NCBI GenBank assembly: GCA_037951105.1
Contig: JBAMJV010008502.1
Coordinates: 1 to 64,000, forward strand
Origin: Echinarachnius parma
Taxonomy: Eukaryota > Echinodermata > Echinoidea > Clypeasteroida > Echinarachniidae
Direction: 5' to 3'
Length of the DNA stretch: 64,000 bases
Shown: piece after piece, positions 12,546 through 37,612 of the stretch
Layout: every line of letters starts with the position of its first letter
How positions within the stretch are numbered: position 1 is the stretch's first letter
The notes under the pieces: generated by a model
Database searches by the model: none
What the model saw: only the letters and a program-made list of their open reading frames with translations
What the model was told of the DNA's origin: nothing
Translations under genes and position numbers: made by a program

Positions 12546-13414
12546 TTGTTCTTGTGCTCTTGACTACAATTTAAAAGGTCTTCAGCTTAATTTAAATTGC
12601 TTCAGTAGTTTGGTTAAGTGTCATGTCAAGAATGAGCCAGTGGCTTACGGTTCCATATGCAGGCAGCAGTTGAGTTTAAGCCATCTTATATGGACTTTGG
12701 CAATTTAATAACTTAGCTCATGATTAATAACATTGGTCAGGAGCCAGCCTGCCCAAGTTTGGGGTGCTCTTCTGTGATTGCATGGTGCTGGTTTAGGGTC
12801 AGGCGCTTCAAAAGCTTAAATATATGGCACAGAAGGTAGATGCTTGATTTGTTTTTATCATTCTTTAGGAAGTTTTGTGGCGTAAAGATAGTGATACTTT
12901 GTCATTTTATATGATCACTACAGTAAATGAGACAGACGGTGTAATGCTTAAGTTCCATGATGAAATTCGAGGTACATGTATATAATAATTATACACTATT
13001 TGTCACCCGTATTTACTTATACCATGTATTCACAGTGAAGAAAAACAAACATGAAAGATGGAATCTAACTGACATCAGCTACTGCCACAGCCATGCTTTC
13101 ACAGGCCTTCATGCTAGCAGATCATTTGTGAGGTGTCAGTGATTAATGAAAAATACTAAGTATCCCGTTTATTATGATATTGAGACAAAGTATGTTTATT
13201 TTGGTAAAAAAAGTTTTACACACACAGACGTTCCCATGCATGTGCCTCTAAATTATAGACAACTTTTCATGATCTAAAACATATTTCAATGTGGACGTTA
13301 ACTTTAATTTGTATTTAATTAATTCGCCACTTTCTGTCATCATGGTAATCATAAAGGCATACCTTGTGTACTCATCTAGTTATCACATGAAGTTTCTGTC
13401 ACTTTTGAGGGTAG
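12546..13414. other. element interior without recognised features
   Basis: Lies between the reverse-transcriptase remnant and the right arm. It would hold the 5' part of the retrotransposon if that existed, but I could not recognise an endonuclease here. AT-rich, with only short open frames. Confidence 0.4.
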
Positions 13415-14550
13415 GTATATCAAATAATGAACTGTAAACAGTTCTTTTTAAAAAAATGTGATGCCAGACAGAAGAATAATACAAATATTGAAAATCTCAC
13501 TCAGGACTAGATACAAAGGGTTACTATTAAATGAATAATCTGACATTGTTTGTATGTAGCGCATTGAATCCCTATTCAACATTTAAGGTAAAATTCAGAT
13601 GGAGTTATGCCTAATTTAGGCCCTAAAACATATAAGATACAATATAACAGTTTTAAATTTCATTTAAGGAAAAGTGAATTTGCATAATAATGCAAACAAA
13701 ATATAAAGTGGTCTATAGGAATTAGACAGATAGAGAACAAAATACACTTTTATCAGAATTTATAGGATTTTGTATGATTTTATCAAATTTTAGTAAATAG
13801 CGCCCTCATATGATGACCTTTTGAAATTCTTCTTATTGCAAACTGAAGAGCCATACTAGTTCTACATATGTGCCAAATATGAGAGTGATTGGTCCTTAAA
13901 TAAAGAAATTAAAGAGGGAGCAATATGTACCCACTTGCGCCATAGACAACATGGCCATCATATGCCGTACAATTGCATATGACGCATGGTGATTACGTAA
14001 TAAAAATATGACCTTTTTGTACATTATATTCAAAGGATAATAGCATTTCTGATTTGAATATACTTTCAGAAATAGATATCATAAGTTAAAGCTAATTATC
14101 ATCATTATCATGGTGAAAAAAATAAACTTTACTAAGAACATTGTTTTTTTGACCGTTTTGTTTACGGAAATTCCTGTGATTTTTCATATGCAAATTTGAT
14201 GACGTCATAATTATATGAAGCCAATCAACTTTGACCATGAAACTTTTTCTGTGTCTTATGGTTATGTAAACAAATGTATCTGCAAAGTTTAGTTGATAAA
14301 GACTTAGCCATTATGAAATGAGAGCACTTAACACAATCTCAATTTTCACCAACCCTAAGAAATTCAGCAAAAAATGAAAAAGTGCTGTTTTTACATACCT
14401 CCAAAAAAGTAGTAAAAAAACATAGTATAAATGAGTTTTTTTCTTGTTAACATTTTGTTTCTAACACTGGACATGTCAATGGACAAAATGACACCCAAGT
14501 CGGAGGATCAGAGGGGGGGTCACCGGTAGACCCCTCTGGCCCACAGACTA
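13415..14550 (-). repeat. right inverted arm of the 6-kb element
   Basis: The reverse-complement partner of 8496-9735. The outer end reads GGCCCACAGACTA. Arms share TATGATGACC, AATTGCATATGACGCATGG and a CACCCAAGTCGGAGGATCAG block near the tip. Divergence between arms is low in the outer 1 kb, so both arms likely arose together or have been homogenised. Confidence 0.8.
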
Positions 14551-20794: not shown

Positions 20795-20977
20795 CTGGGT
20801 TCATGATTGAAAATATATATTCAGTAGAGCGATAAGCAGCAACAATTGTGTTCACACTCTGTTTCAGGCTTTTAGCTGATAATTGTATCATATGATGTGT
20901 TCAAACTGGCTAAAGACTAGTCATTTTGTCATAAATGTACTATCCTATTATGTGGTGGTATCTTGTTCATTATTTAT

Positions 20978-21203
20978 AGCCCGGTCACATATCAACGGAT
21001 TGCGCAAACGGATGTCAAAACGGAGAGCTAAATTTTCCGTCCGCTCTATACGTTTCTTGTCCGTTCCTTGTCCGGTGATGTACGTTGTTCTATGTTTTGT
21101 ACATGAAGCAATGGAGACGACTTTCATCACCGGATAATTTAATTTTGAAAATTGTCTATTCGTTGGGCATACGTTTCGATATCTGTTGATATCTGACCGG
21201 GCC
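20978..21203. mobile_element. palindromic MITE, GGCCCGGTCACATATCAACGG family, copy 1
   Basis: 226 bp with imperfect inverted ends (left AGCCCGGTCACATATCAACG, right ending in GACCGGGCC). Internal landmarks are AAACGGATG, TCTTGTCCGTTCCTTGTCCG, GTACATGAAGCAATGGAGAC and TTCATCACCGGATAATTT. Copies 2 and 3 read in the opposite orientation relative to this one. Flanking ATAs look like extensions of the ends rather than a clear duplication. Confidence 0.75.
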
Positions 21204-21537
21204 ATAAAGAGGATCATTGATGACGGAGGCAAAAGACTGTCTCCACACTCTAGATTTATATCCTGTGATCTATATACTTTACTGTGATCAGTGCTGGGTT
21301 CATACTGCCCCAAAACAAGTCATTTGTCTCCTGAATGTAATCCCCAAATGCAGTGTTTGACTGGTTTCAGATTGAAATCACAGGATAGTCCTTGCCCCCT
21401 CACAAATAGATAGAAGAATTCTTCTTATCTTCTATGCTTCTTGCATCACCATGGGTGTTTGAACAACTACTCTAAATCATGTTCCTGTTTATGAAAGCAG
21501 GCATATCAACTTTTGGAAGAGCTTTTTTTTCATCACA
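21204..21537. other. sequence without recognised features
   Basis: No supported feature. Confidence 0.3.
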
Positions 21538-21616: not shown

Positions 21617-21684
21617 GGATTGGTCCCAAAAATATTTTGGCTAATAGTCTACAGAATATACATGGTATAGGGCAATTCCAAGCA

Positions 21685-21695
21685 AACGCCGTGAC
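21685..21695 (+). promoter_or_regulatory. motif A1, AACGCCGTGAC
   Basis: First copy of the repeated motif of transposon A. It overlaps the inner edge of the left TIR and lacks the leading GT. Confidence 0.6.
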
Positions 21696-21862
21696 GGTCA
21701 GAGGGTGTTTCTCACAATGAAAGTCCAAATAACTCATAAAATCTAAATATCTAGAACAACTTTTGATATGCAATCTGTAACCACTATCCTACCAATAATT
21801 TACAATAGGCAAGAAAACCATAATTCCCAATAAATTATTAATTATGAATATCAATATCTGCC

Positions 21863-21876
21863 GTAACACCCGTGAC
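21863..21876 (+). promoter_or_regulatory. motif A2, GTAACACCCGTGAC
   Basis: A variant copy with one extra base, set inside a small inverted repeat (TGCCGT...ACGGCA). Confidence 0.5.
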
Positions 21877-22059
21877 GGCAAAAGACATGGGTTTCTTACA
21901 TGCTATGAAACTAAGTAAACTCTGTGAACTACAGGAACATTTTGCACTTTTGTCACATAGATTCTTTGTACTAGACATCAAGCTAGAACATCCAAATAAA
22001 AACGTAGAAAAAATCCAATGCTCATAGTAAATATGATATCATAAATGTATCTATGCACT

Positions 22060-22086
22060 GTAACGCTGTGACTGTAACGCCGTGAC
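22060..22086 (+). promoter_or_regulatory. motifs A3 and A4, tandem pair
   Basis: GTAACGCTGTGAC at 22060-22072 and GTAACGCCGTGAC at 22074-22086, head to tail with one base between. The first differs by one base from the second. Confidence 0.7.
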
Positions 22087-22369
22087 CTCTGAATTGTACA
22101 TGTTATATATATGGGAGATATTAAAGAGATGAATAATATGATATAATTTTAATGTAGTGATCCAGAATCAATAAAGAACTAGATGAATGGGTGATAGAAC
22201 CAAGATGCTATTAAATGATCATCCGCATGACACAAATTTGCAGCACAGCGCCCTCTATTGATCAAAAAATCTTTTAGGACATAATTGAAATTCTTATCTA
22301 TTTCAGAAGTTAGTTAATGGAACCATCAAATATTAAAACCAAAATACATACTTAAATGTAACAATGAAA

Positions 22370-22975
22370 TATGAGACCTTTGACATCTGACCTTTGACCT
22401 TGTTTCTCAAAATAACATACAAATGTTTAATTTTTGGTCTGCACAGTGCATATTTGCAAGTGATTTGTTTCATGTAACATGATTTCAGAGTTAGTAAATG
22501 TTTGTTTTTGAATTGGTAATTATCCGAGTGACCTTTGACCTGTGCCCCAAACAGTTTCAGAAAATTGTCTTTTACCTACAGTACTCTTTCTAACATTGAT
22601 TCTGGAACTTAATTGTGAGAACAAAAAACAACAACAATATTTTGACCTGTTGACCTATGACCTCCCATGACCCCATTCCCTAATCAGCTCATATACTTCA
22701 CTGGACGCATACCAGTATTATAATCATGTTATCCTTCAAGGATTCTCAAACTATCTTGATAATAATATAATTTTTGCATATTTGTTAGCTATGTGACCTT
22801 TGACCTTTGACCTCATGGACCAAAATCATATCCAATAATCCGTACCTCTAAATACATGGATTGTACAAAGTTTGAACGAAATCCATCCAACGATTCTTGA
22901 GATATTGCAAAAAAAGAACACTGATGTACAGATGCACATACAGACAGACGGACATACAACCCATACACATACATG
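22370..22975. repeat. module with TGACCTTTGACCT motifs inside transposon A
   Basis: A stretch dense in GACCTTTGACCT words: TGACCTTTGACCT at 22388-22400, 22529-22541, 22794-22806 and 22801-22813 (the last two overlap). It ends in TTCTTGAGATATTGCA and a CAGACAGACGGACATAC tail, a pattern I associate with dispersed repeats in invertebrates. The TGACCTTTGACCT word equals a DR1 nuclear-receptor response element read on the minus strand (AGGTCAAAGGTCA). Possibly an older repeat captured by, or inserted in, transposon A. Confidence 0.55.
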
Positions 22976-23123
22976 ACTCGGGTAACTTTGAGATGGAAAC
23001 ATTATCAACTGACCCTATTCATATAATTATAGCATGAGCAATGCCCAAGCATACCTACAAAAAATATCTTACACTATTTGATTATGTCTACTGTGTTATG
23101 TCAATGGGAATCCAGTAGGTAGC

Positions 23124-23156
23124 GTCACGGCGTTACACAAAACGTAACGCCGTGAC
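23124..23156. promoter_or_regulatory. motifs A5 and A6, inverted pair
   Basis: GTCACGGCGTTAC (minus-strand copy) at 23124-23136 faces GTAACGCCGTGAC at 23144-23156, seven bases apart. Both are perfect copies. This is the only minus-strand copy in the element. Confidence 0.7.
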
Positions 23157-23309
23157 CAAATTGATATTGATTATATTAATAAGTGGTAAAAGATAATGCT
23201 GCTATTCAGCATGCATATTATAGCCCTATGGGCTAATACAGAGAAAACAAAAAATTATTTCATTCCCATTCATATTTTTCCAGAAATATTAAAAATATAT
23301 GTTTTTAGT

Positions 23310-23322
23310 GTAACGCCGTGAC
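23310..23322 (+). promoter_or_regulatory. motif A7, GTAACGCCGTGAC
   Basis: A perfect copy of the transposon A motif, 340 bp from the right TIR. Confidence 0.7.
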
Positions 23323-23875
23323 ATATTAATGATTGTAAATGAGACAGTCACTGAAGCGGAACGAAGAGCGAAAATGACGAAATTGATATTTATCTGAAAA
23401 ATTGAAGCAATGATCCTATCAACACTGAAATAAAATTTTATGAAAACTCCTTTTCGCAGTTCTTTTATGCTTAATATTTAATTGAATGTTTTGTGAAAAT
23501 AACTGAAAATTAATTTATGCTATATTAACAATAAAATAATAGTTTACAATTTTTTTTTTCAAAAACAAAATACATTTTTGGAAAGTTCAATCTTTTAGCT
23601 TTCATTTGATACCAAATTTGTTATGGTACAACGAATTTGAAAAATCAGTGGTTATGTCAATGTTTGCTTGGAATTGCCCTATACTGAAATCAAATAGTCT
23701 TGAACAGGTTAGACTGCCTGTTTGTGCATTCGTTGTCCAGAGCTATTGACGAGAGATTGTCAAAGCTTACTTAAATAGTTTAAACAACTCTTTATTTCTG
23801 CCCAGTCCCATTGCTAACAAATGTCTGTAATGTATTCATGGATCGCTTGTCTGTCAGCCCCCTCCCCCCCATAAA

Positions 23876-24111
23876 GGCCCAGTCACATATCACAGAATAG
23901 CATAAACGGATGCCCCAAAATATAACATTTGCAAAATCAAATTATTCAGTGGTGAAAGTTGTCTCCATTGCTTCATGCCCAAAACTTTCCGTGGGATAGA
24001 ATAACGAACATCGCCTGACAAGGAACGGACAAGAAACGCATACGAACAGATTGAAAATTTTACTATCCGTCAGGCGTCCGTTTACGTCATCCGGTGATAT
24101 GTGACCGGGCC
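23876..24111. mobile_element. palindromic MITE, GGCCCGGTCACATAT family, copy 2
   Basis: 236 bp, from GGCCCAGTCACATATCA to GATATGTGACCGGGCC. It shares GAAAGTTGTCTCCATTGCTTC, GGAACGGACAAGAAACGCAT and the TCCGTTTACG right-hand block with copy 3. It lies just outside transposon A, as copy 1 does on the other side. The flanking AAA and TTT extend the inverted ends. Confidence 0.75.
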
Positions 24112-24300
24112 TTTAGGAGGATATCTATATGCCTCACCGATTATCCACGAGAAAGAGAAGGAGGCTGGGATGAATGCCTTTGTTATAATGGCAAACACTA
24201 TTAGGGATGAGTATACTTAGATTAGAAAAGGATGACATAATGACAACCAAATCTCAAATATAAAGTGATTCAATAACAGATGATTTCGCTGGGGTCAACT

Positions 24301-24718
24301 TAAAGGGTACCACCAGCCAAAAATAATATTCTTATAACTGAAAGGTAACATCTTTAGTAGTCCATTCCATCAACAAGTTCAGAAAAAATATGTTTCCAGA
24401 AAAAAATATATAATTGAAAAACGCTTCACCAATCTAAAGCATGTGTTCATGGGTCTGGATGTATGAAGACTACCTTTGTGCAGAGCGAAACGAATCGTCC
24501 GGATTCTATTGTCTCCAAACGTACGCGTGATAGAATTGGCGCACTCGCAAATGTTTGGCCCGCACGGACCACGAAATAATAGTGGTTCCGTAGGGGGTGG
24601 TAATTTATTGCATTGTTTATGAATTACACAACCCTTTGCAAAATGTTGGGTATCTATTTGATATCACAAAACGGTACCAAAACATATAATGTTGTTCTTT
24701 GCCTGGTGGTCCCCTTAG
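24301..24718. mobile_element. MITE with AAGGGTACCACCAG ends
   Basis: The left end AAGGGTACCACCAGCCAAAA and the right end GCCTGGTGGTCCCCTT are inverted with one or two differences, enclosing about 415 bp. The interior is unremarkable apart from a CG-richer block (24485-24570). The target duplication is uncertain because TTAA-like bases flank both ends. Confidence 0.5.
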
Positions 24719-25043
24719 TTTAAAGGTACACTTGAGTATTGGTACTTCCAAAGTGCCCCTTGACACTATTTGGTTGGTTTTAATTCCATTTGAAAGTTCA
24801 TTGAATACAACATGTGAAATAAGAATCATTCCCTTTTGAATGCAAATCAAATTTTAGCTGCTATTTTTGTGTGCAGGTGAGCTTGAAGAGAAGTCACAGT
24901 GGCTTTGTCTGGACATATTAGCTTAGTAGGGCATGTATACATGTAGAGTTTAATCAGTGCACTAATTGAGCTATCACAGTTTACCATGTACTCATGAATG
25001 ACATATATTATAATAGCTATTTTAAGTCTAATTAAGTCTTGGC
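24719..25043. other. sequence without recognised features
   Basis: Contains TTTTTGTGTGCAGGTGAG near 24870-24886, which looks like a splice acceptor joined to a donor. No convincing exon could be built around it. Confidence 0.3.
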
Positions 25044-25221
25044 TAAGGGGCCATCTACAAAGTATGTACGCACAAGAGAGGAGGGGGTGGGGGTGGGTTC
25101 ACGCTGATGCGTACGCTACATTCAACCACATGCATAAAAAGTGCATACAAGTGATGGGGGGGGGGGGGGGGGTTCAATTTCGGACAATAATTTGTGTACA
25201 TACTTTGTAGATGGTCCCTTA
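25044..25221. mobile_element. MITE with AGGGGCCATCTACAAAGTATGTAC ends and internal poly(G)
   Basis: The left end (from 25046) and right end (to 25219) are inverted over about 25 bases with one or two differences: CCATCTACAAAGTATGTAC on the left, GTACATACTTTGTAGATGG on the right. TA flanks both sides, which fits Tc1/mariner-type integration. A 17-base poly(G) run (25156-25172) lies inside, so this is a second MITE in the window that carries a poly(G) tract. Confidence 0.75.
25156..25172. repeat. poly(G) tract, 17 bases
   Basis: An uninterrupted G run inside the MITE at 25044-25221. Confidence 0.9.
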
Positions 25222-25532
25222 TTGAAACTTCATTAAAAAGATTTCTTAATGTAATTATGAGTCTTATATTGTAGAACTAGGTCTGTGGTGTACATGTAAC
25301 TACATGTATAAGCGGTGAAGCTAAAATAAAGAGGACTAAAAACTCCAGTCTCAGAGTTGAACCTGTGACTGAATTTATAATGGTTTGGCAAACTGTTCAA
25401 TCTTGGTGAATGTATATTTGTGTTTCTCATGAATATTACAACCAACCCACTGTCCCAAACATAATGGATCCATCCATGCTAAATCGATCGTTCACTCACT
25501 CATACCATCTCATTAATGTTTAGAGTTATTCA
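25222..25532. other. sequence without recognised features
   Basis: No supported feature before the poly(C) tract. Confidence 0.3.
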
Positions 25533-25555
25533 CCCCCCCCCCCCCCCCCCCCCCC
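25533..25555. repeat. poly(C) tract, 23 bases
   Basis: An uninterrupted C run. Two CATGCTAAATC-type blocks lie on either side (about 25476 and 25588), hinting at a small flanking direct repeat. Confidence 0.85.
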
Positions 25556-25784
25556 ACTCTCTCCTAAACATGATAGAACTATCTTACCATGCTAAATCCT
25601 TCAATCATTCCTGTAAAATACATGTAAATCTGCACTTTTATCAGAAAGGGATTCACCTTTATTAGAAAGGAAAGTGGCGCATTACTTGGTTAAATTGGAA
25701 CGTCCTTCCCTATCATTCAGCATGATAATGGAATCCCCTGGTATCTTGTAGAAAGGGACAAAAAGCCATGGAAAGTGGTTATCT

Positions 25785-25965
25785 TCTGCCCACGTCTCCA
25801 ACCAGGGGAAAAAAAATAACATTTATTTTTCGGGGGCTACTTATCAAGCTTGCCGACATGAAAATAACACTCTAAAATTTGTTTTGCATTGAACTCTATG
25901 CACATTTTGGGGGGCTATTTTTGGAATTTTGTGATCTTTTACAGATCCTAACAGCCTTTAATAAG
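25785..25965. repeat. dispersed repeat, GGGGGCTACTTATCAAGCTTG type, copy 1
   Basis: Resembles 59484-59670 and more weakly 50450-50620. Shared landmarks are TTTATTTTTCG(G/T)GGGCTA, TTTTGTTTTGCATTGAA(C/A)TCTA, and a GGGGGGCTATTTTTGG or GGGGCTCTTCTTGGCATT block. Function unknown; probably an old transposon remnant. Confidence 0.5.
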
Positions 25966-26244
25966 AGGCTAGATCGATTTCAAGGGTTTTATGGCATCGA
26001 TAAGTACCGGTAATAATAGGTGTAGAATGGACACTGAAAGGTGTTGATTCCGCTACTTACCAAGGGATGAACGACGATTATTGAGCCAGGGAAATTGAAA
26101 ACAACCATTTAAAAACCGGGATAGTCATCCTCAAAATGTGACAAATTTAACACTGATATCACGGACGTTTCTATGGCAAACAGCAATAATGGTAACAACA
26201 TCTACGCTGTGATCAGTGGTTCACTGAAAGGGATATCCAGCTCT

Positions 26245-26345
26245 GATGCAATCAATGAATAAATAAATAAGTAAATAAATGAATGAATAAATAGATAAAT
26301 ATATAAATGAATGAATGAATAGATAACAAATAAATGAATTAATAA
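26245..26345. repeat. AATA/AATG microsatellite, imperfect
   Basis: Tetranucleotide repeat with AATA, AATG and GATA variants. Confidence 0.85.
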
Positions 26346-27070
26346 AAAGATCATTGAATACATAAATGGATACATTTACCACATAGAATAAAAATGAATT
26401 TTAAACCAGCTAAGTTTAGCATTTGAAATTCTCTGTATTTAACTTTTTACAGTTCTTCCAAGTGACAGTTGGGTTCAGCAGCAAATTATCAATAAAAAAG
26501 GATATTTCATTTATAGTTAATATCACATACAGGTACCAAACCCTTCATAAACCCCTATAAAACGTAACATTAAAAGTGATACAAGGTTACCAAGATAAAA
26601 TACTTATCCTCAGAAATTGTAGGATATATAAATACCGAATAGGGGTGGATCAAAAACCAATTATAAGACAAGGTTAAGAGGTGGTCATTTGTAAGTCTAT
26701 ATCTCGACAATTGTGACAAGAAATCAGAAAGAAGAACATTGTCTGGTCGAAAATTGCCACAAGGATGGGCTAAAATCTGTTAAATCCCTCGGACAAAGTA
26801 CAACAAATCCATGCAACAAAGAATGACAGGTTGCCCGTCGTTTTCGTGAATAGCGCCTTGGCTAACCGGCTAACCGTCGCATAATCCGCCAATAATGATC
26901 GTCATTGATGCTGCTGATTGAATACCTGTTTTTTCTTCACTTGATTCCATTCTTCATTTAATAGTTGAGCCGTTTTAATCCTGCCACATTGTATTTTCTA
27001 ATGATTGTATGTAATGTTACATGTTTGTTCAGGAATATTTCACAGTCTCTTTGCTACAATTTGTATCATT
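26346..27070. other. unique-looking sequence
   Basis: No repeat structure. It has a slightly more even base composition than its surroundings and might be host regulatory or intronic DNA. No exon is supportable. Confidence 0.3.
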
Positions 27071-27098
27071 GTATCCCCCGAACCACTTCGGGGGATAC
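27071..27098. repeat. 12-bp perfect hairpin GTATCCCCCGAA
   Basis: The stem 27071-27082 pairs with 27087-27098, with CCAC as the loop. The right-hand half TTCGGGGGATAC recurs at about 29066-29077 ahead of another GCG-rich block, so it is probably part of a dispersed repeat rather than a lone hairpin. Confidence 0.75.
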
Positions 27099-27116
27099 TA
27101 TGGATTTGGCCTCGTC

Positions 27117-27118
<2 letters not shown>

Positions 27119-27168
<50 letters not shown>

Positions 27169-27170
27169 GT
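27119..27170. repeat. GCC microsatellite
   Basis: About 17 uninterrupted GCC triplets, the strongest CpG-rich spot in the window. It directly precedes the 156-bp minisatellite. Conceptual polyalanine, polyarginine and polyproline frames here are only translations of the triplet. Confidence 0.95.
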
Positions 27171-27186
27171 CCGCCGCAGAGATTTT

Positions 27187-28410
27187 CTTGTGAACGCTCT
27201 ACAGGTCCGAGTTCTTGTCCGATCATTTTCTAATTTGGTATGAAGGTGTATTAAGGAAAGAGGATGAAGCCTATTGATTTTGGTGTGGGGCGGAGTCCTG
27301 GTTGCCATGGTAACCATGATATAAAGAAATAGTTAAGATTACCTTGTGAACGCTCTACAGGTCCGAGTTCTTGTCCGATCATTTTCTAATTTGGTATGAA
27401 GGTGTATTAAGGAAAGAGGATGAAGCCTATCGATTTTGGTGTGGGGCGGAGTCCTGGTTGCCATGGTAACCATGATATAAAGAAATAGTTAAGATTACCT
27501 TGTGAACGCTCTACAGGTCCGAGTTCTTGTCCGATCATTTTCTAATTTGGTATGAAGGTGTATTAAGGAAAGAGGATGAAGCCTATTGATTTTGGTGTGG
27601 GGCGGAGCCCTGGTTGCCATGGTAACCATGATATAAAGAAATAGTTAAGATTACCTTGTGAACGCTCTACAGGTCCGAGTTCTTGTCCGATCATTTTCTA
27701 ATTTGGTATGAAGGTGTATTAAGGAAAGAGGATGAAGCCTATTGATTTTGGTGTGGGGCGCGGTCCTGGTTGCCATGGTAACCATGATATAAATAAATAG
27801 TTAATATTACCTTGTGAACGCTCTACAGGTCCGAGTTCTTGTCTGATCATTTTCTAATTTGGTATGAAGGTGTCTTAAGGAAAGAGGATGAAGCCTTTAG
27901 ATTTTGGTGTGGGGCGGAGGCCTGGTTGCCATGGTAACCATGATATAAAGAAATAGTTAAGATTACCTTGTGAACGCTCTACAGGTCCGAGTTCTTGTCC
28001 GATCATTTTCTAATTTGGTATGAAGGTGTATTAAGGAAAGAGGATGAAGCCTTTTGATTTTGGTGTGGGGCGGAGTCCTGGTTGCCATGGTAACCATGAT
28101 ATAAAGAAATAGTTAAGATTACCTTGTGAACGCTCTATAGATCCGAGTTCTTGTCTGATCATTTTCTAATTTGGTATGAAGGTGTATTAAGGAAAGAGGA
28201 TGAAGCCTATTGATTTTGGTGTGGGGCGGAGTCCTGGTTGCCATGGTAACCATGATAACCATGATATAAAGAAATAGTTAAGATTACCATGTGAACGCTC
28301 TACAGGTCCGAGTTCTTGTCCGATCATTTTCTTATTTGGTATGAAGGTGTATTAAGGAAAGAGGATGAAGCCTATTGATTTTGGTGTGGGGCGGATTCAT
28401 GGTTGCCGTT
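27187..28410. repeat. 156-bp minisatellite, eight units, with X-box palindrome
   Basis: Unit starts at 27187, 27343, 27499, 27655, 27811, 27967, 28123 and 28288. Six steps are exactly 156 bp; the last is 165 bp because AACCATGAT is duplicated. Units differ by only a few substitutions each. Each unit contains TGTGAACGCTCTACAGGTCC, CCGATCATTTTCTAATTTGG, a GGAAAGAGGATGAAGCC block and GTTGCCATGGTAAC. That palindrome is intact in units 1-7 (27301, 27457, 27613, 27769, 27925, 28081, 28237) and broken in unit 8. It fits the RFX X-box consensus GTNRCC-N(0-3)-RGYAAC. No open frame runs through the array. Confidence 0.95.
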
Positions 28411-28844
28411 GTGTGTAAGAGATTTAGGTTCAGACATCAAATCCAGAAATACATGTCTAAAAAGTACCAGGGCCATGCACAATTATTGCAAATATCTCAG
28501 CTGAGGGATGAAAAGAAAGATCAGGGGATCTACTTTGCATAGGTATAGATTGTTAGAATGAGAAAAAAATGAAGTAATATTTTCAATAAATCCATTATCA
28601 AACAGCAAATTAATTAATACTTGAGTCATTTGAAAACTTACTTGACATTAAAATAATGTTTTTAAAACTGAATGAGATATATGATTCTCTAGAGACTCTA
28701 GTACACTTGAATACTGATCCCCCTATAATTGATAAACAAATCCAAGTATAACACCTTGTTCAAAACCCTAAACAATGACGATTGGCTGCAATTGTTTTTA
28801 ACTGCTGCATAATGTAAGAGCCTGTTACATATGCCAATATTAAT
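28411..28844. other. AT-rich sequence without recognised features
   Basis: No supported feature. Confidence 0.3.
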
Positions 28845-29110
28845 GAGCTCCGCGAGTTAGCAAAGGCCTCGCCGCTGACGCGGCTCAGTCCAGCGATCAC
28901 TGCTGTAAGCGCACATCGCCTTGTCTATTAATCAGACCCTGCTCGGAGGACAAACAGCGCGCGAGGCCTTGCCCAAAGGCTACTGCCAGCCTAGTAGAAC
29001 AACGTACACCACCAAACTTGTTCAGTTCACAATATTACAACCCACAAAAGTGCAATGCAATTGGTTCGGGGGATACATGTGCTCGGCTGCGCGACCCGCC
29101 GAGCGCGCAA
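28845..29110. promoter_or_regulatory. GC-rich, CpG-containing island, possible regulatory region
   Basis: Markedly richer in G, C and CpG than the surroundings, with GCCTCGCCGCTGACGCGGC, CAGCGCGCGAGGCC and CTGCGCGACCCGCCGAGCGC. It could be a promoter or CpG-rich element, or the body of a repeat, since TTCGGGGGATAC near 29066 also occurs at 27087. Short open frames overlap it but show no domain. Evidence for a promoter is base composition only. Confidence 0.25.
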
Positions 29111-29173
29111 TTTCTAGTTATATGGGGGTTTTGCAGTAAGACGATTGGCATGCATCTTTACCCCATTCCTTAT

Positions 29174-29410
29174 GGCCCGGTCAGATATCAACGGATAGCG
29201 GAAACGAATGCCCAACGAATAGAAAATTTGCGAAATGAAATTATCCGGTGATGAAAGTCGTCTCCATTGCTTTATGTACAAAACATAGAACAACGTACAT
29301 CACCGGACAAGGAACGGACAAGAAACGCATACGAACGGAGACGAACGGATGGAAAATTTAGCTCTTCGTTTGACATCCGTTTACGCAATCCGTTGATATG
29401 TGACCGGGCT
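29174..29410. mobile_element. palindromic MITE, GGCCCGGTCACATAT family, copy 3
   Basis: 237 bp, GGCCCGGTCAGATATCAACG to TGATATGTGACCGGGCT. The closest relative of the consensus in the middle part: AAATTATCCGGTGATGAAAG, GTACATCACCGGACAAGG and GAAACGCATACGAACGG. Confidence 0.8.
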
Positions 29411-29426
29411 ATTACTACAGTGTATA

Positions 29427-29494
29427 CCTTGCAATCCCCGTAGGGTTAATACAGGACCCACTGGGTTCCTGTAGGCAATCAGCCAATAGGTTAA
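29427..29494. repeat. short interspersed repeat, TAGGTTAA end
   Basis: A small TTAACC-family copy with GCAATCCCCGTAGGGTTAAT, CACTGGGTTCCTGTAG and a closing AGGTTAA. Confidence 0.5.
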
Positions 29495-30940
29495 GTTCTT
29501 TGTGTTTCTGATTGATAGAATAGTTTCACGTGACTGATCTTGTTACGAGAAGAAAGTTAGAAGATGGGAAAGAACGTCCTGGGAATATGGAAAATAATAC
29601 AAAAGCAGCTAAATTTAAATGTGTCTAAGTATCTATTGATAATAGATTTTTCGCGATTGAGAGGGTAACAGATTTTCACGTGCTGTTGATTTTGCGATTG
29701 GCATTAAAACGGGCTTGCCACAGCACTGAAAAATCAGTACTTTCAAACGTATAGTGACAAAAATGCAGCGCCTTTTATATATGCTAATAAAACTTCTCCT
29801 GAAATACTGCAAATTTGTTCGCATGTTGTTAATTTCGAGACTGTTTACCTATTTGTAAAATTCATGCAAACTAAAACCCTCGCGAAATTAACAGCTCATA
29901 CAGTATATTAGATTCAAATCCTCTTTCCTGTAAAGACTTGTCTAGTTGGTATGTACGGTCATTTCCTGTATATTACCTAAATATCTCAAAAAGGTTGTAG
30001 ATTAGACTTTGTAAACTAGTAGTCTGACCAAAACAAGTCTAAACTGTTTGGTAATGTCTTGTGTAAACTGGGGATGAGTGGGCACATATCTTCAACCCTT
30101 AGCAACCGGGGGTACAATTGCACAAACGAGTTGGGAACTGATCCCGGTGCAGCTATATATAGAGTGATATATTAATTTTCAGGTTCTGAGGCAAATCCTA
30201 GTTGTGTCTAGCAAGAATTTTCAGGGTTGGGGTCTACCAAGTAATGTGTTGATTTTTGTGTTGAATGTGTTCATTTTTATAGAGAAACAAGCCTCTTATA
30301 TTTCTTGTCTTTTTTGTTAACCTACTCTCTGAATAAGTTTTGATAACATTGTACAGATAAAAATGTGGCATTGCCCATGTGTAGTATAGTCCCATACACA
30401 ATCAATCAATCAAGTAAATAAAGCCTGAAATGCAGTCTCCTTTTTTTGCGTGAAAACAACCCCACAATTAGACAAAACGGCTGACTTAATGGTATATACT
30501 TATGCTGTGGGAAAAAATGCAGCATGAATACTTAAAAAAAAGGTAAAACAACCAAAACGAAAAGCTCAAAAGATTATAAAATCCCACACCAAATCAATAT
30601 TTATCTTTGGACAAGATAGCACTGGTACCGCCCACTCCAAGTTTGCTTATTTTTTCCGTTAACAGTTTCCAAATTGTCGAAATAAATGTCAATGCACAGG
30701 TTGCTCTGGAGTGGGCCGGGTACTTAGCCCTAATCTAAAAGTAAACTGGCCAGTGTCCAGCCCATCTGACCATTGTTTGTTGTTTGTTACGAAGACGTCT
30801 CGGAATGGTTTAATAGCTGTACTTTGGGGCTGCGAGGAATGTATTGAGGATCTTATTTTTCTAATTCTATCTTTTTCTTCTTCCGCTCTTTCACTTTGTT
30901 GAAGGTCAGAGATTTTAAAGGGATAGTCGGTGATGCATAG
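29495..30940. other. mostly unique-looking sequence
   Basis: Near 29645-29910 TTTCGCGATTG and CTCGCGAAATTAAC blocks with a GTTTAC pair resemble the CGCG-containing repeat inside 14702-15379 and may be a diverged copy. A TTTTTTTTGCGTG block lies near 30442. No gene is supported. Confidence 0.35.
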
Positions 30941-30944
30941 CCTG

Positions 30945-31290
30945 TTACCACTGGTCTACTTACAATTGGTTAAGTTGGTCTAATATAATTTTGTCTATCC
31001 AAAGATTGTCTACGTCAGTCCTTCTGGTCTGCTTTTTTTGTCTAATCGTAATACATATTCGGGTGTTTATAGCCTTTGGTCTACTTCCAGTTTGACTTAT
31101 AACAAGTTGGTCTAATGTAATTTGGTCTATACATCCAGTCTATCTACAATCATTCTCCTGTTTGTTTTTGTTTGTTTATTGAATCATAGAGGATATTCAG
31201 GGGTTTATTGCCTTTTGGTCTAATACCAAGTTGGTCTAATATAATTTGGTCCACATCCCATTTGTCTATAAATTGTGTCTACTAATTGTT
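30945..31290. repeat. degenerate array of GGTCTA words
   Basis: The phrase AAGTTGGTCTAATATAATTT(T/G)G occurs in similar form near 30972, 31105 and 31229, about 125-130 bp apart. Extra TGGTCTA and TTGTCTA words lie between. The reverse complement of the same word, TAGACCA, is the building block of the array at 57262-57770. Confidence 0.65.
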
Positions 31291-32334
31291 TGTTGTTGAG
31301 TCTAACTTAGAGCTAAGTTCAACTTAGAATCTTTGTGAAACACCCCACTGGTCTCAATCAAACAACAAAGCATCCTCGCATATAAAAGAAGGGGACGAAT
31401 CACAGGATTTTGACTTTTTGGATGAAAAAATAAGAATTTTCATATTTTCTCTCTTCTATTTCACCCTATTGTCAGGATTTTCATGTAGCCTAAAGAAGAA
31501 AAAAAATTATGATTAATGATGATGATTTGAGGCAATAACCAAACCTCAAAGTCTAGACCTCTCGCTTCAGTCCAGCACAAGTGTGTATTCCTAATTAGCT
31601 CCATGGTCTGAAATTAGCCGCACCTTTTTTGTTTGGCTTGTAAGCTGTGGTCAATTTGAGATTGCTATCAAGGGCAGCCGGCAAAGTCAGAAATGAAATA
31701 AACTGTGCAGCTTGAAAGTCACCATTGACAATAAACTGTTTGGAATAAATGTTGTAAACTTGGATAAAAGATTGTTTTTATTCTTCTCTATCCAATTATA
31801 TAAATGTGCTTGGTTAAATTGGGAATATTTCCTGAGGGCTATCATTTACAATAGACAGTAAAGTGAGACAAATAAAGGGGAAATCTTTTGCTCGTCCATT
31901 TATCAGCGGTCAGTGACTCTTATCCTTTTGAGTAATATGCCGTTATCGGTGAACTTGATAACCCACAGTGCTGAAATGATTTTCCTTTACATTGATCTTC
32001 AAGCAAATTAATAAAGTTGGGGAGACAAAAGAGATACATCAATTTGTAGTAATTGTCAGGTAGAGCGCTAGGGTTACCTTTTTTTAATACAAATGTTCTT
32101 CTTTTTTTTCCCCAAATGCTTTCTTCTTGTGAAGGTATACTTCTTTTCTATCAAGTGGAGAATACGCATGATGCGATTCAACCAACTGCTTTGATGAATA
32201 GAGCAGTTTTAAAGTGACTTCCATTGAGGTCTTTCAAATTGTTCACCACAAAATTAAATTCTAGCCAGTAATAGAGGTCAAGTTGTAGCATAGGCATTGT
32301 GGAGATCATAGTTTGAATTTGATAAGGCGGATAC
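31291..32334. other. unique-looking sequence
   Basis: No recognised repeat or gene. Confidence 0.35.
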
Positions 32335-32430
32335 AATTTAGATGATGATGATGACAATGACGATAGCAACAATGAAGATGCTGACGATGACAATGATGCA
32401 GGAGGAGGAGGAGGAGGAGGAGTAGGAGGA
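32335..32430. repeat. imperfect GAT/GAC and GGA microsatellite
   Basis: GATGAT-type triplets followed by a run of AGGAGG triplets. Confidence 0.85.
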
Positions 32431-33235
32431 GTAGGAGAGGGATGTTTTAAATTCAAATTCATTTAATATCTACCTTGTTTAAAACATTATATGAGTTATG
32501 AATATTAGCCTGCTGTTAAAAACATGAGGATTGATGTTAGAAAAATAACTTGTTTGTATGCTCAAATATATGCTGATAAACATGAAAACACCTACATCAG
32601 CACCTTTGGAAGTAGTGATCGCGGTATTTTATGAATGGGCTCCCCTCCAGACGAAAGAATGCCAGTACGTTCACCTCCTGAGCAATTTGAGGGGCGGGGC
32701 ATTTCTTTTTTTCATTATCCCCTCTGACTTCTTTTCAAACTTCCTCAAAATGTCACGTCGAATAAAAGATTTTCTTTTCTCTCCTTTGGAGGGTTTTATT
32801 TCACCGGACAAATTTGGGTAAATGAGCGCTCAGCATGGTGGACCATTATGTGGTCTGCCTGGTCCTTCTACTGGGGTCATTTGCCAGTCCATGTACTGTT
32901 CCACGTAAAAACCTACGGAACGTCCTCGTTTTATTCAGCCAAAAGATGCCCCGAAGCCACACAGTTATTGAGTGACTGGCTTTGTCACCTTGGTAATTTA
33001 GCTTGGCAGGGCTGGCTGGGTGAGAGCTGGGTTAGAGGTTTGGTGAGATGGGGAGATGCTTGTAGTAATGTTGGGAGTTGTTCGCCACTGCCTTCGGCGC
33101 ATTAAAGGCCCGTTAACTCATTTGAGGCGGTTTGTTTACGTATAACACACATTCTGCTTACACCCTAGCCCAAGCATTTCGACAATGTCATCACCATCCC
33201 CAGCAGTATTTTATCTTCATAATAATCATCGTTGT
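32431..33235. other. unique-looking sequence of higher complexity
   Basis: From about 32640 to 33110 base composition is balanced, with none of the low-complexity tracts typical of the window. That is the texture of constrained non-coding DNA or an undetected exon. The 87- and 85-codon open frames here (32558-32821 and 32848-33105) show no domain and no splice-site support. Confidence 0.3.
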
Positions 33236-33283
33236 CGTCATCTTCATCATCATCTTCATCATCATCATCATCATCTTCTTTGC

Positions 33284-33349
<66 letters not shown>

Positions 33350-33350
33350 T
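33236..33350. repeat. ATC microsatellite
   Basis: Imperfect then pure ATC/TCA triplets (pure from about 33284). Accounts for polyhistidine, polyisoleucine and polymethionine conceptual frames. Confidence 0.95.
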
Positions 33351-33444
33351 GCCATCGTCATCTCAATAACCATCACCATCACCATCATCATCGCCATCAC
33401 CAACTTCACACAACTTCATTGTGTTGTTTTGTGTACCTTCTTAC

Positions 33445-33507
33445 TCGGGCTGGGGTCTATGGAGAATACATATTATAGCAAAATCAGTCAGTCCTGAACG
33501 GGGTTAA
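33445..33507. repeat. short interspersed repeat, CTGAACGGGGTTAA end
   Basis: A member of a second small family (also near 38540, 48092, 48182, 51597 and 52499): GGCTGGGGTCTATGGAGAAT, a TATTATA block and CAGTCCTGAACGGGGTTAA. Confidence 0.5.
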
Positions 33508-34988
33508 TCTTGTAACACTGATCTCAATCACAGTTTGATCAAATTTAAAAAGAAATGTTTTTCCTTTTATGACAACCCAAAGTTGGGGTGCAGTTAATAC
33601 ATGGGTGCGGTTTATACACTGGCAAATACGGTACCCATAATAATGCAGCCATACCCTTGCACTGGCTAGAAATTACAATTTTCCCCATTTATTATTGGGA
33701 GGGTGTATGTAGGTTTTGGGAGGTGTCCAACAATAACAACCATGAACTCCAAGGGGACAAAATAACTTTCAAGAAATGAGATTGAATCTAGCCTAAAGAG
33801 AAAAGAAGAAAAAAAATGCATTAAATTTTCATGAATGAAAATTATTCTCTCATATATATCGCTTGTATGTTTGCTAGGAAAACTTGATATTGAAACTTGT
33901 AAACGCAGAGAAAGAGAACAAAAAGTTGACTAATTTTCATGAATGATTTGCCTGTCATATTTCACAAATTTGAAGCCACAATATATAGCTATGTAGAAAA
34001 AGAATGAAGTGCCTACACTTGTTCTTCTGTGAATGGAGCTTATTTATGTGCCTTTCTTTCATATTTATGGGAAAAGGGGGAGCTAGCAGTGAGAAACAAA
34101 TCCACACTTCTCTGTTTATGAGTCATATTGATTTGGAAATATGGTTTTTATTTTTTCTCATTATATACTCAAATAAGTATTTGTTATTAATGAAATTATA
34201 TTGTTCACATGTTTTATTTATATAGTTGCTTTGGTTTTTAATGCAAGATGGAAGTTGATAAAGAATACAAACACGTAAACCTATTTATTGTATGAATGAA
34301 CTACATTATATACGGTACTTATTTTTGTCATATTGTCGGGTGAGAGCAAGAAGGGCCCTTAGTCAATTTTTGGCTGAATTCAGTTCTGTATACCATCTTG
34401 TAGGTTGGATACTACTCTATGTGATGCCACATTTTCAGATATTTATTATTTCAAATTTTGTGAATATTTATCAGAAATCAAAGATATCAAAATTGGGTTA
34501 CTACCAATTTTGTGTTATAAATGTGAATTGTACAAAAATGCATCAACATGTTTTTGTTTATTTCATGTAAATTTGTTTATGAATTATTCTGGGTCAAAAC
34601 AAAGTATGTGTTTATGCTGTAAAAATATGACAGCCGAGATATTTTGCCACATTCTTCCTCAAGTAATACATGCATTGCTGTTTTCAAAATCACACAATAC
34701 ATTGCAGAATAGAGTGGGAGGTAGTATATCTTATAATTTTAATAAATCAAATATTTTGGTGGTGAATTATTCTGGGTCTAAATTATATAATTCTGCTGCA
34801 ATAATCACTAATTTGCTTGTTAGAATGCCATATTTCTAAGATCACAAATTTCTCTGTCAGAATGCCGTAGGGGATTTACTATTAATAAATAAAATTAATT
34901 TCAAGCAAATATTATAATGAAATTTGGTAGTGGGCGGCCACCAGAGCAAACAATTTAAATTAAAGAAGTCTACATTACCTCAAACATG
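33508..34988. other. AT-rich sequence, no gene supported
   Basis: Includes a 144-codon open frame at 34405-34839. Its peptide is Cys- and Asn-rich with NYSGSK twice, because ATTATTCTGGGTC is repeated in the DNA at about 34578 and 34766. I recognise no domain and would not call it a gene. Confidence 0.3.
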
Positions 34989-35355
34989 TCTTGGGCAATT
35001 CCATGATTAGGTGGACATGACCCCAAAATTTCAAAGTGTCTTTTTCTTACATTTTTTGGTTGTATATGATTAAAGACACATCAAAATTACTGGAAAGGTT
35101 ATTTATTTTACTTTGACTGTGGTAAAAGTGGGTTAAAATAGCGAATTTATATTGGTTATATTTTCCTGTGTTATTTCTAATGTAAGTTAAGAAAAAGTTG
35201 ATTATGCCATTATGAGCATGAAAATACACAAGACCTTACAAACTTATCATATTTATTTAGTGAGTACAATGCTCTAATAGATTTATCATGCAAAATTAAG
35301 AATCTGAGTTGCTTATGCCAACAGTGAGTGAAATTAAAAACCATTGGTATGCCAT

Positions 35356-35370
35356 GTAACGTTACTAACC
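35356..35370 (+). promoter_or_regulatory. motif B1, GTAACGTTACTAACC
   Basis: Perfect copy. The first ten bases, GTAACGTTAC, are a palindrome and TAACC makes it directional. Confidence 0.8.
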
Positions 35371-35520
35371 AAAACATGGATTTATTTTTCTATAGAGAGA
35401 ATGCAATGCCTTATAATATTCCTACTTCAAATTTTTCTCTTCCAGGCAATGCTCTATCAAAATTAAGGAACAAATTTTACAAATATTATATGATGTATTA
35501 ACTATAAGCAGTCAAAATCT

Positions 35521-35584
35521 GTAACGTTACTAACCATGTAACGTTACTAACCAGTCTATGATACAGAGTGTAACGTTACTAACC
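35521..35584 (+). promoter_or_regulatory. motifs B2-B4, cluster of three
   Basis: Perfect copies at 35521-35535, 35538-35552 and 35570-35584, all in the same orientation with gaps of 2 and 17 bases. Confidence 0.85.
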
Positions 35585-36483
35585 ATAACAACAGTGAAAT
35601 AGACACTTATAAGCTGGCCCTAATCAAAAGTGAGTGAAAGGATATGTAAAGTAAGACAAAAGAGGCCACTTTAGAACAATGGATGATCAATTTTTTTAAA
35701 GTAATGTGAGTTATTCAACCATGTGCAGCATCCCATGTGTGCAGCATCTCATATCTATGCTCTATGCAAGAACATGTGCAGTATATGATGTTCAGCGAGC
35801 AGTATTTTAGTGTAAACTCCTCATAAATCTTTCTCCTAGAAAGTAGTCATTGGAAAATACAGTTGACTCTACTTTGACGAGCAGCGACCTGTCTTTGGTA
35901 AGTTGAATTATTGTAGTAATTATAATCTTAATTATCATTTATACCCTATATCAAGGTATTTTGTTGTACTGAATACACTGTGTACAGTTTACACTGATTA
36001 ATGATAATGATGTATATTGTATTTACAGTGAAAACTAATATATTGATATAAAACATATATATTGTAATGGATTACATAAACTTACAAGTGTATATTTAAT
36101 GTAATTACACTGTCCAGAGATGTTTATGTTTGTGTGTTTTTAGGGGTGCATTATGATTAGCCATGTCGGTTGCCATAGAAACTTGTATGTACAAAAAACA
36201 TCTTTAGTGATGAAGCACTTGCAAAAAGTAGTATTTTAATTTTGTGAAAACTTCTAAGGGATACAACAAGAATCTTAAAACCAATTTTGTGACTGAAATA
36301 TTTTACAGGTATACTATATTTGTAACAATTGTTTTATCTCATTTGTTTGTGTCATGTGGGAACTTTCCAACACTCATTCAAGTATTCTACTCTGCAATAT
36401 GATGCAGAAAATGTTCATCTTAATTAATTACTACTTGCCTATCTTTTAGTTCATGAATACATTATATTTTGTTTTTATTTATT

Positions 36484-36774
36484 TTTCTATCTGTAGGTCA
36501 TGAAGCAAAATCAATAGTGAACTTGAAGAGGACTGGCAAGTATGAGAAGTACAAAGATAAGAAAGCAGTTACCATGAAGAGGAGCTGGGAGGAGAAAAAG
36601 ATGCAAGAACATTCCCTACCAAAATGTGTGCAAAAACAGCTCCAAATCAAGAAGAAACTAGCTACAAACAAACATCTCTTTTTAGAATTCTATCTCTCCA
36701 ATGAGTTTTGTATTAAAACACACATAATTATTTTATTTACACAAAGCTACATGTATTTGAATTTGATACTATGA
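36484..36774 (+). other. exon-like open frame inside transposon B
   Basis: A pyrimidine-rich stretch ending CTATCTGTAG (36485-36496) looks like a splice acceptor. It is followed by an open frame rich in Lys and Glu for about 60 residues, with KRTGKYEKYKDKK and KRSWEEKKMQEH, then a hydrophobic AT-rich tail to a stop at 36772-36774. No domain is recognised. It could be a remnant of a transposase exon, captured host sequence, or chance. Confidence 0.2.
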
Positions 36775-37201
36775 ACAAAGTACTATTTAATTTTTTTGTA
36801 AGAATCCGAATGTAACATTAATTGGATTATTGAACAAGTCAACAAATGACCATTTGGATTGATAGATCTCTACTCAATATTTGCCTGCTAAAATACTACA
36901 AATATTGAATCTAAATGCTTGCAAATAAACAGTTAAATGGTATTACAAAGTATGCATTATTAACCTACCATTTGATGAACTTTGGTGAACTATGGAATGT
37001 ATCGGATAAGATATGTTTTCAAACAGTTTTCTTGTTTCAAGTTGTGAGTTAAGAGTTTCTAGTTAAAGAATTTAAAAGTTAAGAGTAATATGGATAGTTA
37101 GGTTGATTTACTTGTAATTCCTAAGTATTACTTGTGATTTTGAGGCGAAGGGAGGTTAAAAAAATGATGTTTGGTAACTTTTACCTTTGCACGGACAAAG
37201 T

Positions 37202-37231
37202 GTAACGTTACTAACCGTAACGTTACTAACC
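37202..37231 (+). promoter_or_regulatory. motifs B5 and B6, tandem pair
   Basis: Perfect copies at 37202-37216 and 37217-37231, directly abutting. Confidence 0.85.
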
Positions 37232-37402
37232 ATGATTTTGGAGCCTAATGAAAAAAATATGAGTCAAGATGCTTTAATTATTGGCTGAAACATGTGCCAA
37301 CTAACTAGAAGTAAAATGAATATGGCACTTTGTTGGAATTATCTAAGGTTTTAGAAGACTTCTCATTTGAAAACATTGATTTTTTTCCCATGTCCTTTTT
37401 TT

Positions 37403-37417
37403 GTAACGTTACTAACC
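37403..37417 (+). promoter_or_regulatory. motif B7, GTAACGTTACTAACC
   Basis: Perfect copy. Confidence 0.8.
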
Positions 37418-37581
37418 GACAATAAAAGTTGCCATGGCGACGCGAATATTATTTCAATTGTGTTCATTTTTTTTTTGTATTATAGACCTAGGGTGGGTGA
37501 ACATGTTGTAACATGATTGTGACTTGAAATGAATAGATGGTGGTGTTATAGTAGAATATGTTATGAAAATATGCTCTAAAT

Positions 37582-37596
37582 GTAACGTTACTAACC
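37582..37596 (+). promoter_or_regulatory. motif B8, next to the right terminus
   Basis: Perfect copy, separated by one base from TGGAATTGCCC. A motif placed right at the terminus is what one expects for a transposase-binding site. Confidence 0.8.
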
Positions 37597-37612
37597 GTGG
37601 AATTGCCCTCTT

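Follow-up and report, generated by a model that had tools for sequence, protein, structure and literature searches.

In the CACTA transposon En/Spm, the protein TNPA binds subterminal repeats and the transposase binds the ends (PMC2613891, PMC8978399). Passages of the same papers describe how such motifs vary: the soybean CACTA element Tgm has two motif subfamilies in one species (PMC2613891), and the motifs of Jozin elements in Chenopodium vary by species (TATTTGTAACTA, TATTTGTAACGG, TATTTGCGTCAC; PMC8978399). In Ac/Ds, AAACGG hexamers within the terminal 200 bp are reported to bind the transposase (PMC3260210), and a zebrafish THAP9 transposon is described with 12-bp subterminal repeats beyond 400-bp spacers (PMC7776569). 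Here we describe two elements, A and B, in a stretch of 64,000 nucleotides from the echinoid Echinarachnius parma (contig JBAMJV010008502.1, positions 1 to 64,000 of the forward strand, hereafter the window). It is likely that A and B are non-autonomous cut-and-paste DNA transposons of one group, and that the short motif repeated inside each is a candidate site for binding by a transposition protein specific to the family. The superfamily is left without a name, because no transposase gene was found.

Element A (2010 bp) is flanked by TATA on both sides and has inverted ends that are perfect over 18 bp. Element B (2616 bp) is flanked by TCTT, and its inverted ends are perfect over 11 bp and paired at 16 of 18 bp. 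The A motif is present seven times: four copies are perfect (one of them inverted), one has a single mismatch, one, adjoining the left end, has two mismatches, and one has an inserted base. Two of these three imperfect copies carry CpG-type changes (CTG for CCG; ACA for ACG), and for this reason they look like decay. The B motif is present eight times, always perfect, and its final copy lies 12 bp in from the right end. In coordinates, identical ends, 4-bp duplications, copy numbers and one copy touching a terminus in each element, the window is as the original prediction had described it. The interiors of A and B give no significant alignment (best E 0.053), and what they have in common is the ends and the word GTAACG. 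That the two motifs begin with the same six bases had also been pointed out; this is correct but weak evidence, as six consecutive bases coincide in 2.4% of shuffled motif pairs.

The repetition of the motifs is not expected by chance. In 2000 first-order simulated sequences of 2616 bp, no 15-mer had more than two copies, and among 2000 such sequences of 2010 bp there was one case of a 13-mer with four copies. Exact inverted pairs of 11 bp with a 4-bp duplication, on the other hand, are not rare in themselves, the mean over 40 simulations being 1.7 per 64-kb window. A and B could on that count be two ordinary families of miniature inverted-repeat transposable elements with the same ends by coincidence, or share a simple repeat. 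As ends and duplications alone do not settle the matter, the genome counts decide. In the host assembly (1.20 Gb, 14,790 contigs) the 11-bp end GGGCAATTCCA is found 5022 times forward and 5067 times reverse, or 10,089 times in all, which is about 5000 pairs' worth; the reversed control gives 37 + 38 = 75. The B motif has 850 + 828 matches and its control 1 + 1. The further copies that had been anticipated thus exist, and together with the lattice described below they refute a coincidence, which is now hardly conceivable.

Forty regions were fetched, namely 26 of about 30 listed exact end pairs and 14 unpaired ends. Complete elements number 36: the 26 exact pairs, the window pair, and eight picked by matching flanks. 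L116, one of these eight, comes from the loci that match an exon-like stretch of B. All 36 carry the same 11-bp ends, with one mismatch in a few copies. The 4-bp duplication first noticed at A and B holds beyond the window, being exact in 21 of the 26 elements fetched regardless of their flanks in addition to both window elements. A count of 31 out of 36 is obtained when the window pair and the eight flank-picked elements are included, but 21 of 26 is the fair count. In none of the 36 elements does the duplication reach 5 bp. The 31 exact duplications are A or T in 110 of 124 letters, and 11 of them are palindromic (expected fraction 0.07); the base before is C in 17 and the base after is G in 12.

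The two ends of an element are unequal. End-1 has a motif copy centred at 20 bp, and End-2 is free of motifs for its first 310–380 bp. Sorted by repeated motif, the 36 elements fall into 12 types, each with its own motif (its code) of 10–15 bp: A GTAACGCCGTGAC, A' GTAACAGCGTGAC, B GTAACGTTACTAACC, C GTAACGGAAGGAC, D GTCGGACGTAC, D' TTACGGACGTAC, E GTGACAGACGGGAC, F GTAACTGACGTTAC, G TAACACCGGGAC, H GTAACGGAATTAC, I GTAACTCGCGTTAC and J GTCACGGACATTAC. Five of these (D', F, G, I and J) are known from a single complete element each. Pairwise identity within families is 96.4–99.0% for A, 97.0–98.4% for A', 97.0–97.7% for long C elements, 96.1% for D and 93.6% for E, and short forms match long forms in part (B 91–93%, C about 81%). 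The single family of the original prediction is therefore better described as one group with shared ends, in which A and B are distant families among at least 12 motif types. The codes are discrete, because a search with the C/G End-1 pattern and five free positions (1436 matches, control 0) gave almost solely two of them: among the first 100 matches, assessed by eye, eight were CACCG (G), four were one-base variants and the rest were CGGAA (C). Two further observations concern codes and ends. At G000:C38:304691-305068 there are three copies with lattice-like spacing, all GTAACTCACGTTAC, which may be the I code after uniform CpG decay or else another code. Two H-type elements, L098 (position 1231) and L103, contain an internal, partnerless end copy GGGCAATTCCACTGTTACAGAATGACA after GAAT.

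The original prediction saw a motif that had switched in concert between A and B with the ends kept. Such a switch cannot be read from A and B alone, because they are distant families. It is seen in A and A', which differ by concerted in-place recoding at seven orthologous sites. The consensus sequences of six A and three A' copies are 88.4% identical over 1809 aligned columns. All seven motif sites agree between A and A' in alignment column and in orientation, with six of them forward and one inverted (site columns assessed without L082, which has a large insert), and every one of them has GC in A and AG in A'. The switch positions differ in 14 of 14 cases, compared to 2 of 77 other motif positions, 11 of 96 positions in the 10-bp flanks and 200 of 1719 in the body (Fisher p 1.3e-13 for the switch positions). 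Motif positions outside the switch are better conserved than the body (p 0.009). Among individual copies, the six of A all have GC apart from three AC sites (CpG-type decay), and the three of A' all have AG apart from one deleted site.

The same division is seen in the genome as a whole. The pattern GTAACNNCGTGAC has 3427 + 3405 = 6832 matches (control 302 + 287 = 589), of which the first 100, again by eye, comprise 47 GC, 48 AG, 5 AC and nothing else. Of the 15 A or A' elements with at least two sites among these 100 matches, none mixes GC and AG, so the motif follows the identity of the element, as had been supposed. The End-1 pattern has 914 matches (control 0), and the first 100, by eye, are 60 CA-GC, 38 GT-AG and 2 CA-AC, with none mixed. 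One A' element, at G000:C32:48894-64339, has its sixth and seventh motifs about 13.8 kb apart, as judged from the listed positions, and probably holds a large insert.

D and D' are a second case of in-place recoding, at 57% identity. An aligned D site is present for seven of the eight D' sites, the eighth having none. At these seven, D has GTACGTCCG followed by AC (AAT at the terminal site) and D' has GTACGTCCG followed by TAA. The concerted switch with fixed ends thus stands, for A versus A' and again for D versus D'. Gene conversion or copying within the element could also make the copies of a motif alike without functional selection, and in the families examined the copies inside one element are indeed near-identical. 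Conversion tracts would, however, have to end at the 13-bp motif every time, since the flanks have diverged at the rate of the body, and the seven sites include an inverted one. If neutral, such a process would also leave the shared distances between sites unexplained, and we regard it as very improbable.

The distances in question form a lattice that is shared by families whose intersite sequence no longer aligns. Over 12 family representatives, the End-1 site centres lie at 20.1 (s.d. 0.3), 197.5 (4.2), 393 (4.9) and 407 (7.7) bp, the single listed site of D and of J being counted as nearest both to 393 and to 407. End-2 sites lie at 364–374, 527–541 and 545–558 bp (about 366, 532 and 550) in all nine long families that have them. 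Positions defined by A are matched within 15 bp in 57 of 66 cases in the 11 other families (of the misses, one is in D, three are in G, three in I and two in J), compared to a mean of 7.3 (s.d. 2.8, maximum 18) in 5000 uniform random placements. The lattice table covers 35 of the 36 elements, L095 being omitted as it has a nested C element inside. Single linkage of the intersite sequence at z > 5 joins A-A'-C-G-J and D-D' and leaves B, E, F, H and I separate; without A', C, G and J, which group with A, the match is 38 of 42. Short elements (710–801 bp) have one central cluster, which is 384–422 bp from End-1 and at the same time 310–411 bp from End-2. In the long elements of C, the End-1 positions repeat in part 600 bp deeper, three of the four recurring at 620, 800 and 998.

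The lattice also bears on what binds the motif. The chief rival on this point is an element-encoded anti-silencing protein, like VANC of Arabidopsis VANDAL elements, with code switches following escape from host silencing. VANC21 and VANC6 are described as binding different short motifs in non-coding repeats that co-evolve with the protein (PMC5735166). Here, several codes contain CpG, and an exon-like stretch in B is free of motifs, which would agree with such a role. VANC targets are, however, often tandem repeats that vary considerably among related elements, according to passages of the same paper (PMC5735166). The sites described here are at set distances from both ends, one of them adjoining an end, and the shortest elements keep the End-1 positions and serve both sides with one central cluster. 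For these reasons pairing of the ends is favoured, and an anti-silencing role is unlikely. A recruited host protein (a replication, chromatin or transcription factor, different for different families) is another candidate. Both window motifs have two GTNAC boxes (shuffle p 0.0003), as might be expected for a dimeric factor, and the spacing of about 166–196 bp would resemble that of nucleosomes. With twelve codes sharing one lattice within a single genome, many interchangeable host factors would, on the other hand, be required, and this makes the explanation quite improbable. As a general feature the boxes were rejected, two boxes being absent from the motifs of most other families. The pattern GTAACNNNNGTTAC as a whole is hardly enriched in the genome (3948 matches, control 3478).

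With a family-specific transposition protein as the preferred reading, the following mechanism can be proposed. The 11-bp end would be the cleavage site of the transposase, and the motif the predicted site of a family-specific DNA-binding part, either a transposase domain or an accessory protein comparable to the En/Spm protein TNPA. Several correctly spaced sites would have to be occupied before the two unequal ends could be paired and cut. When the specificity of the protein shifts, or an element turns dependent on the protein of another family, copies with matching sites at all positions would amplify, and every site would end up recoded with lattice and ends kept. Codes seem to change also by a second route, the exchange of a whole motif-bearing half. 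This is suggested because I and J are 90.8% identical over the 380 bp of End-2 up to the first motif and divergent beyond, with a short C element resembling that half at 75–77%. The End-2 sequence GTGGACAT is present in five families (B, C, G, I and J). At End-1, the order is GGGCAATTCCA, the adjoining code, and then TTCAGA in C, D', G and H.

Several observations weigh against this reading. At 8 of the 14 unpaired-end loci, no partner end with a matching flank was found. An exact duplication is absent in five of the 26 unselected elements (L068 and L080 of D, L069 and L085 of E, and L076 of G), so that all four D and E copies are without one, and G has non-matching flanks and no End-2 lattice sites. 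The frequent words of L093, L094 and L100 do not make up this lattice. A, C, G and J retain weak similarity between their sites, and because of this a part of the lattice may reflect descent and not constraint.

A further point against it is that no autonomous copy or transposase gene tied to these ends was found, and the long family member with a transposase frame that the original prediction proposed to look for did not appear in open reading frame (ORF) and domain searches. These covered ORFs of at least 140 codons in the fetched loci; for L076, an element of 5.5 kb with 17 ORFs, 10 of them were compared with Pfam. Genome searches gave 32 matches for PF20700 (none within 10 kb of listed ends or elements, by eye, with some hundreds of places listed), 17 for PF02992 (Transposase_21; none within 10 kb of listed ends, by eye, most ends being unlisted) and 68 for PF21787 (P-type; again none within that distance of listed ends, by eye, with some hundreds listed). 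The distance result is a weak negative, because the list holds some hundreds of end or element places. The His-Me nuclease search gave 15 matches and no gene tied to these ends; 11 matches are inside two tandem arrays, G000 C174:300565-333618 and C9873:24675-34498 (L128), with 8 and 3 units and a period of 4528 or about 4820 bp. The arrays carry a His-Me nuclease domain of the I-PpoI type together with a transposase frame of Mutator-like kind. One full period of one array does not contain GGGCAATTCCA; its frame of 606 aa matches the Mutator-like transposase family. KolobokP seems to be present in the genome as KolobokP-like multimers.

Table 1. Features of elements A and B, with positions in the window.
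Feature	Position	Strand	Basis or comparison
4-bp duplication TATA, left of A	21666..21669	.	sequence
Element A, non-autonomous, motif GTAACGCCGTGAC, End-1 (motif-bearing) on left	21670..23679	+	96.7, 98.1, 99.0% identical to L067, L070, L072
A End-1 inverted terminal repeat GGGCAATTCCAAGCAAAC	21670..21687	+	
A motif site 1, 2 mismatches, End-1 lattice position 20	21683..21695	+	
A motif site 2, inserted base and CpG-type change, lattice position ~200	21863..21876	+	
A motif site 3, one CpG-type change, lattice position 396	22060..22072	+	
A motif site 4, perfect, lattice position 410	22074..22086	+	
A motif site 5, perfect, inverted, End-2 distance 550 bp	23124..23136	-	
A motif site 6, perfect, End-2 distance 530 bp	23144..23156	+	
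A motif site 7, perfect, End-2 distance 364 bp	23310..23322	+	
A End-2 inverted terminal repeat	23662..23679	-	
4-bp duplication TATA, right of A	23680..23683	.	
4-bp duplication TCTT, left of B	34989..34992	.	
Element B, motif GTAACGTTACTAACC, End-2 on left, End-1 on right	34993..37608	+	
B End-2 GGGCAATTCCATGATTAGGTGGACATGA	34993..35020	+	
B motif copy, End-2 distance 370 bp	35356..35370	+	
B motif copy, End-2 distance 536 bp	35521..35535	+	
B motif copy, End-2 distance 552 bp	35538..35552	+	
B motif copy, End-2 distance 584 bp	35570..35584	+	
Exon-like open stretch in B, CTGTAG just upstream resembling a splice acceptor; open frame 36457-36774	36496..36702	+	
B motif copy, End-1 distance 400 bp	37202..37216	+	
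B motif copy, End-1 distance 384 bp	37217..37231	+	
B motif copy, End-1 distance 198 bp	37403..37417	+	
B motif copy, End-1 distance 20 bp	37582..37596	+	
B End-1 inverted repeat, overlapping last motif copy	37591..37608	-	
4-bp duplication TCTT, right of B	37609..37612	.	

The exon-like stretch of B has 150 scored matches in the genome, many of them 99% identical and without stops. A transposase remnant was considered and rejected: Pfam gave a weak TruD match below the cut-off (E 0.012), NCBIfam no match and the PDB one match at E 1.5. Two divergent genome copies of the stretch proved to be B copies, one stopping after 1.6 kb and the other 90% identical to B over 2.0 kb and carrying a broken exon frame. 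In some B copies the gap between End-2 and the stretch is unusually long, as on contig C879, where it measures about 4.1 kb instead of 1.5 kb. Because the two divergent copies belong to B, the stretch is read as a passenger or gene remnant, probably amplified along with B. Empty sites were looked for within the 64-kb window, and none was found. Elsewhere in the window, a 240-bp repeat is present three times (20976-21210, 23876-24110 and 29167-29412), two copies flanking element A, and at 27118-28407 a run of (CGC)20 is followed by a 156-bp unit repeated 7.8 times in tandem with copies about 95% alike. A structure of about 6 kb at 8496-14550 has inverted arms of about 1.07 kb that are 92% identical and is bordered by TAG on either side; the segment between its arms includes a stretch weakly resembling reverse transcriptase. 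At 44893-46374 there is a foldback-like structure with inverted arms of 637 bp, 89% identical, and a spacer of about 210 bp.

How a DNA-binding protein and many sites can change specificity jointly is an open question, since intermediates should fail. A and A' offer an aligned case, with two bases per site and seven sites on the same scaffold, in many copies and families with ends that can be recognised. The lattice predicts how a transposase would assemble, with site number, spacing and orientation separable from the code. If the codes are independent, they would be a ready set of non-interfering vectors for gene transfer, and a model of the ways in which non-autonomous elements keep up with a transposase or escape from it.

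The fixed short duplications of PHIS elements include TWA, Ginger1 elements have TGT..ACA ends, and Sola1 elements have a 4-bp duplication. The Repbase rule for non-autonomous elements, as given in a passage of PMC4455052, assigns two elements to the same superfamily when their duplications are equal in length and terminal positions 1–11 have at most one mismatch; A and B have 4 bp each and agree at 11 of 11 positions. Classic Kolobok duplicates TTAA (PMC9587614), which is found in 0 of 31 exact duplications here. The hAT duplication is 5–8 bp (PMC4482050), and no 5-bp duplication exists among the 36 elements; that of P is 8 bp (PMC7776569), not 4. PHIS elements (Harbinger, Nuwa, Pangu) have fixed short duplications such as CWG, TNA and ANT (PMC4482050), and those described here are 4 bp and varied. 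Ginger, one of the groups first suggested for comparison, agrees in the 4-bp duplication of Ginger1 (PMC10045372) but not in its ends. The duplication length is compatible with Sola1 and with AcademX (3–4 bp; PMC10045372), and with these two the comparison is by duplication length alone. KolobokP comes close, with RR..YY ends, inverted repeats of 11–18 bp and duplications of 3–4 or 4–5 bp (PMC9587614); the elements here have GG..CC ends and 4 bp in 21 of the 26 unselected cases. KolobokP is, however, described with long terminal direct repeats (PMC9587614), and these are absent from A and B, where the longest direct repeat is 42 nt in the A stretch and 28 nt in the B stretch (A and B only).

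A nearly even case can be made for a new superfamily with invariant 11-bp cleavage ends and a seven-position, two-end lattice, on which the code would be rewritten in place with each new family. If this is true, a dozen or more independent transposition systems share their ends in one genome and ignore each other. Outside the genome, the B motif matched 47 stretches in viral contigs (a single match each, taken as chance), the 16-base end pattern 6 in viral contigs and the 18-bp A end 4 in prokaryote contigs, as single matches. A text match of GGGCAATTCC, GGAATTGCCC and both motifs against the literature gave, among the matches listed, papers unrelated by title and neither long motif. The open-licence literature yielded no paper on these elements and no account of such ends, of a dozen codes sharing a lattice or of orthologous sites that are all recoded, and absence there is not proof. 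Family-specific subterminal codes are already known from CACTA, and for a lattice with in-place recoding no precedent was found in that literature.

Each of the closest systems shares a part of this picture. VANDAL/VANC is alike in that related elements have different repeated motifs, changed along with the binding protein (PMC5735166), and differs in that the role of VANC is anti-silencing and the motifs lie in variable tandem repeats. The P element and the zebrafish THAP9 transposon are likewise built with two unequal ends and with transposase sites placed internally at set distances (PMC7776569), but with an 8-bp duplication and few internal sites, and the passages available describe no set of codes. 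In Ac/Ds, 11-bp ends are common to otherwise dissimilar non-autonomous elements (PMC3260210); the duplication there is 8 bp, and a single hexamer is described for the entire family. CACTA elements combine conserved ends with a subterminal motif; the motif is not the same in all families, and a protein encoded by the element binds it (PMC2613891). By their ends the elements were rejected as CACTA/EnSpm, having GGGCA ends and 4 bp compared to CACTA ends and a 3-bp duplication, and the passages on CACTA describe close-set motifs (19–23 copies) and no fixed lattice. For the binding of the motif itself, TNPA of En/Spm would by analogy be the nearest model.

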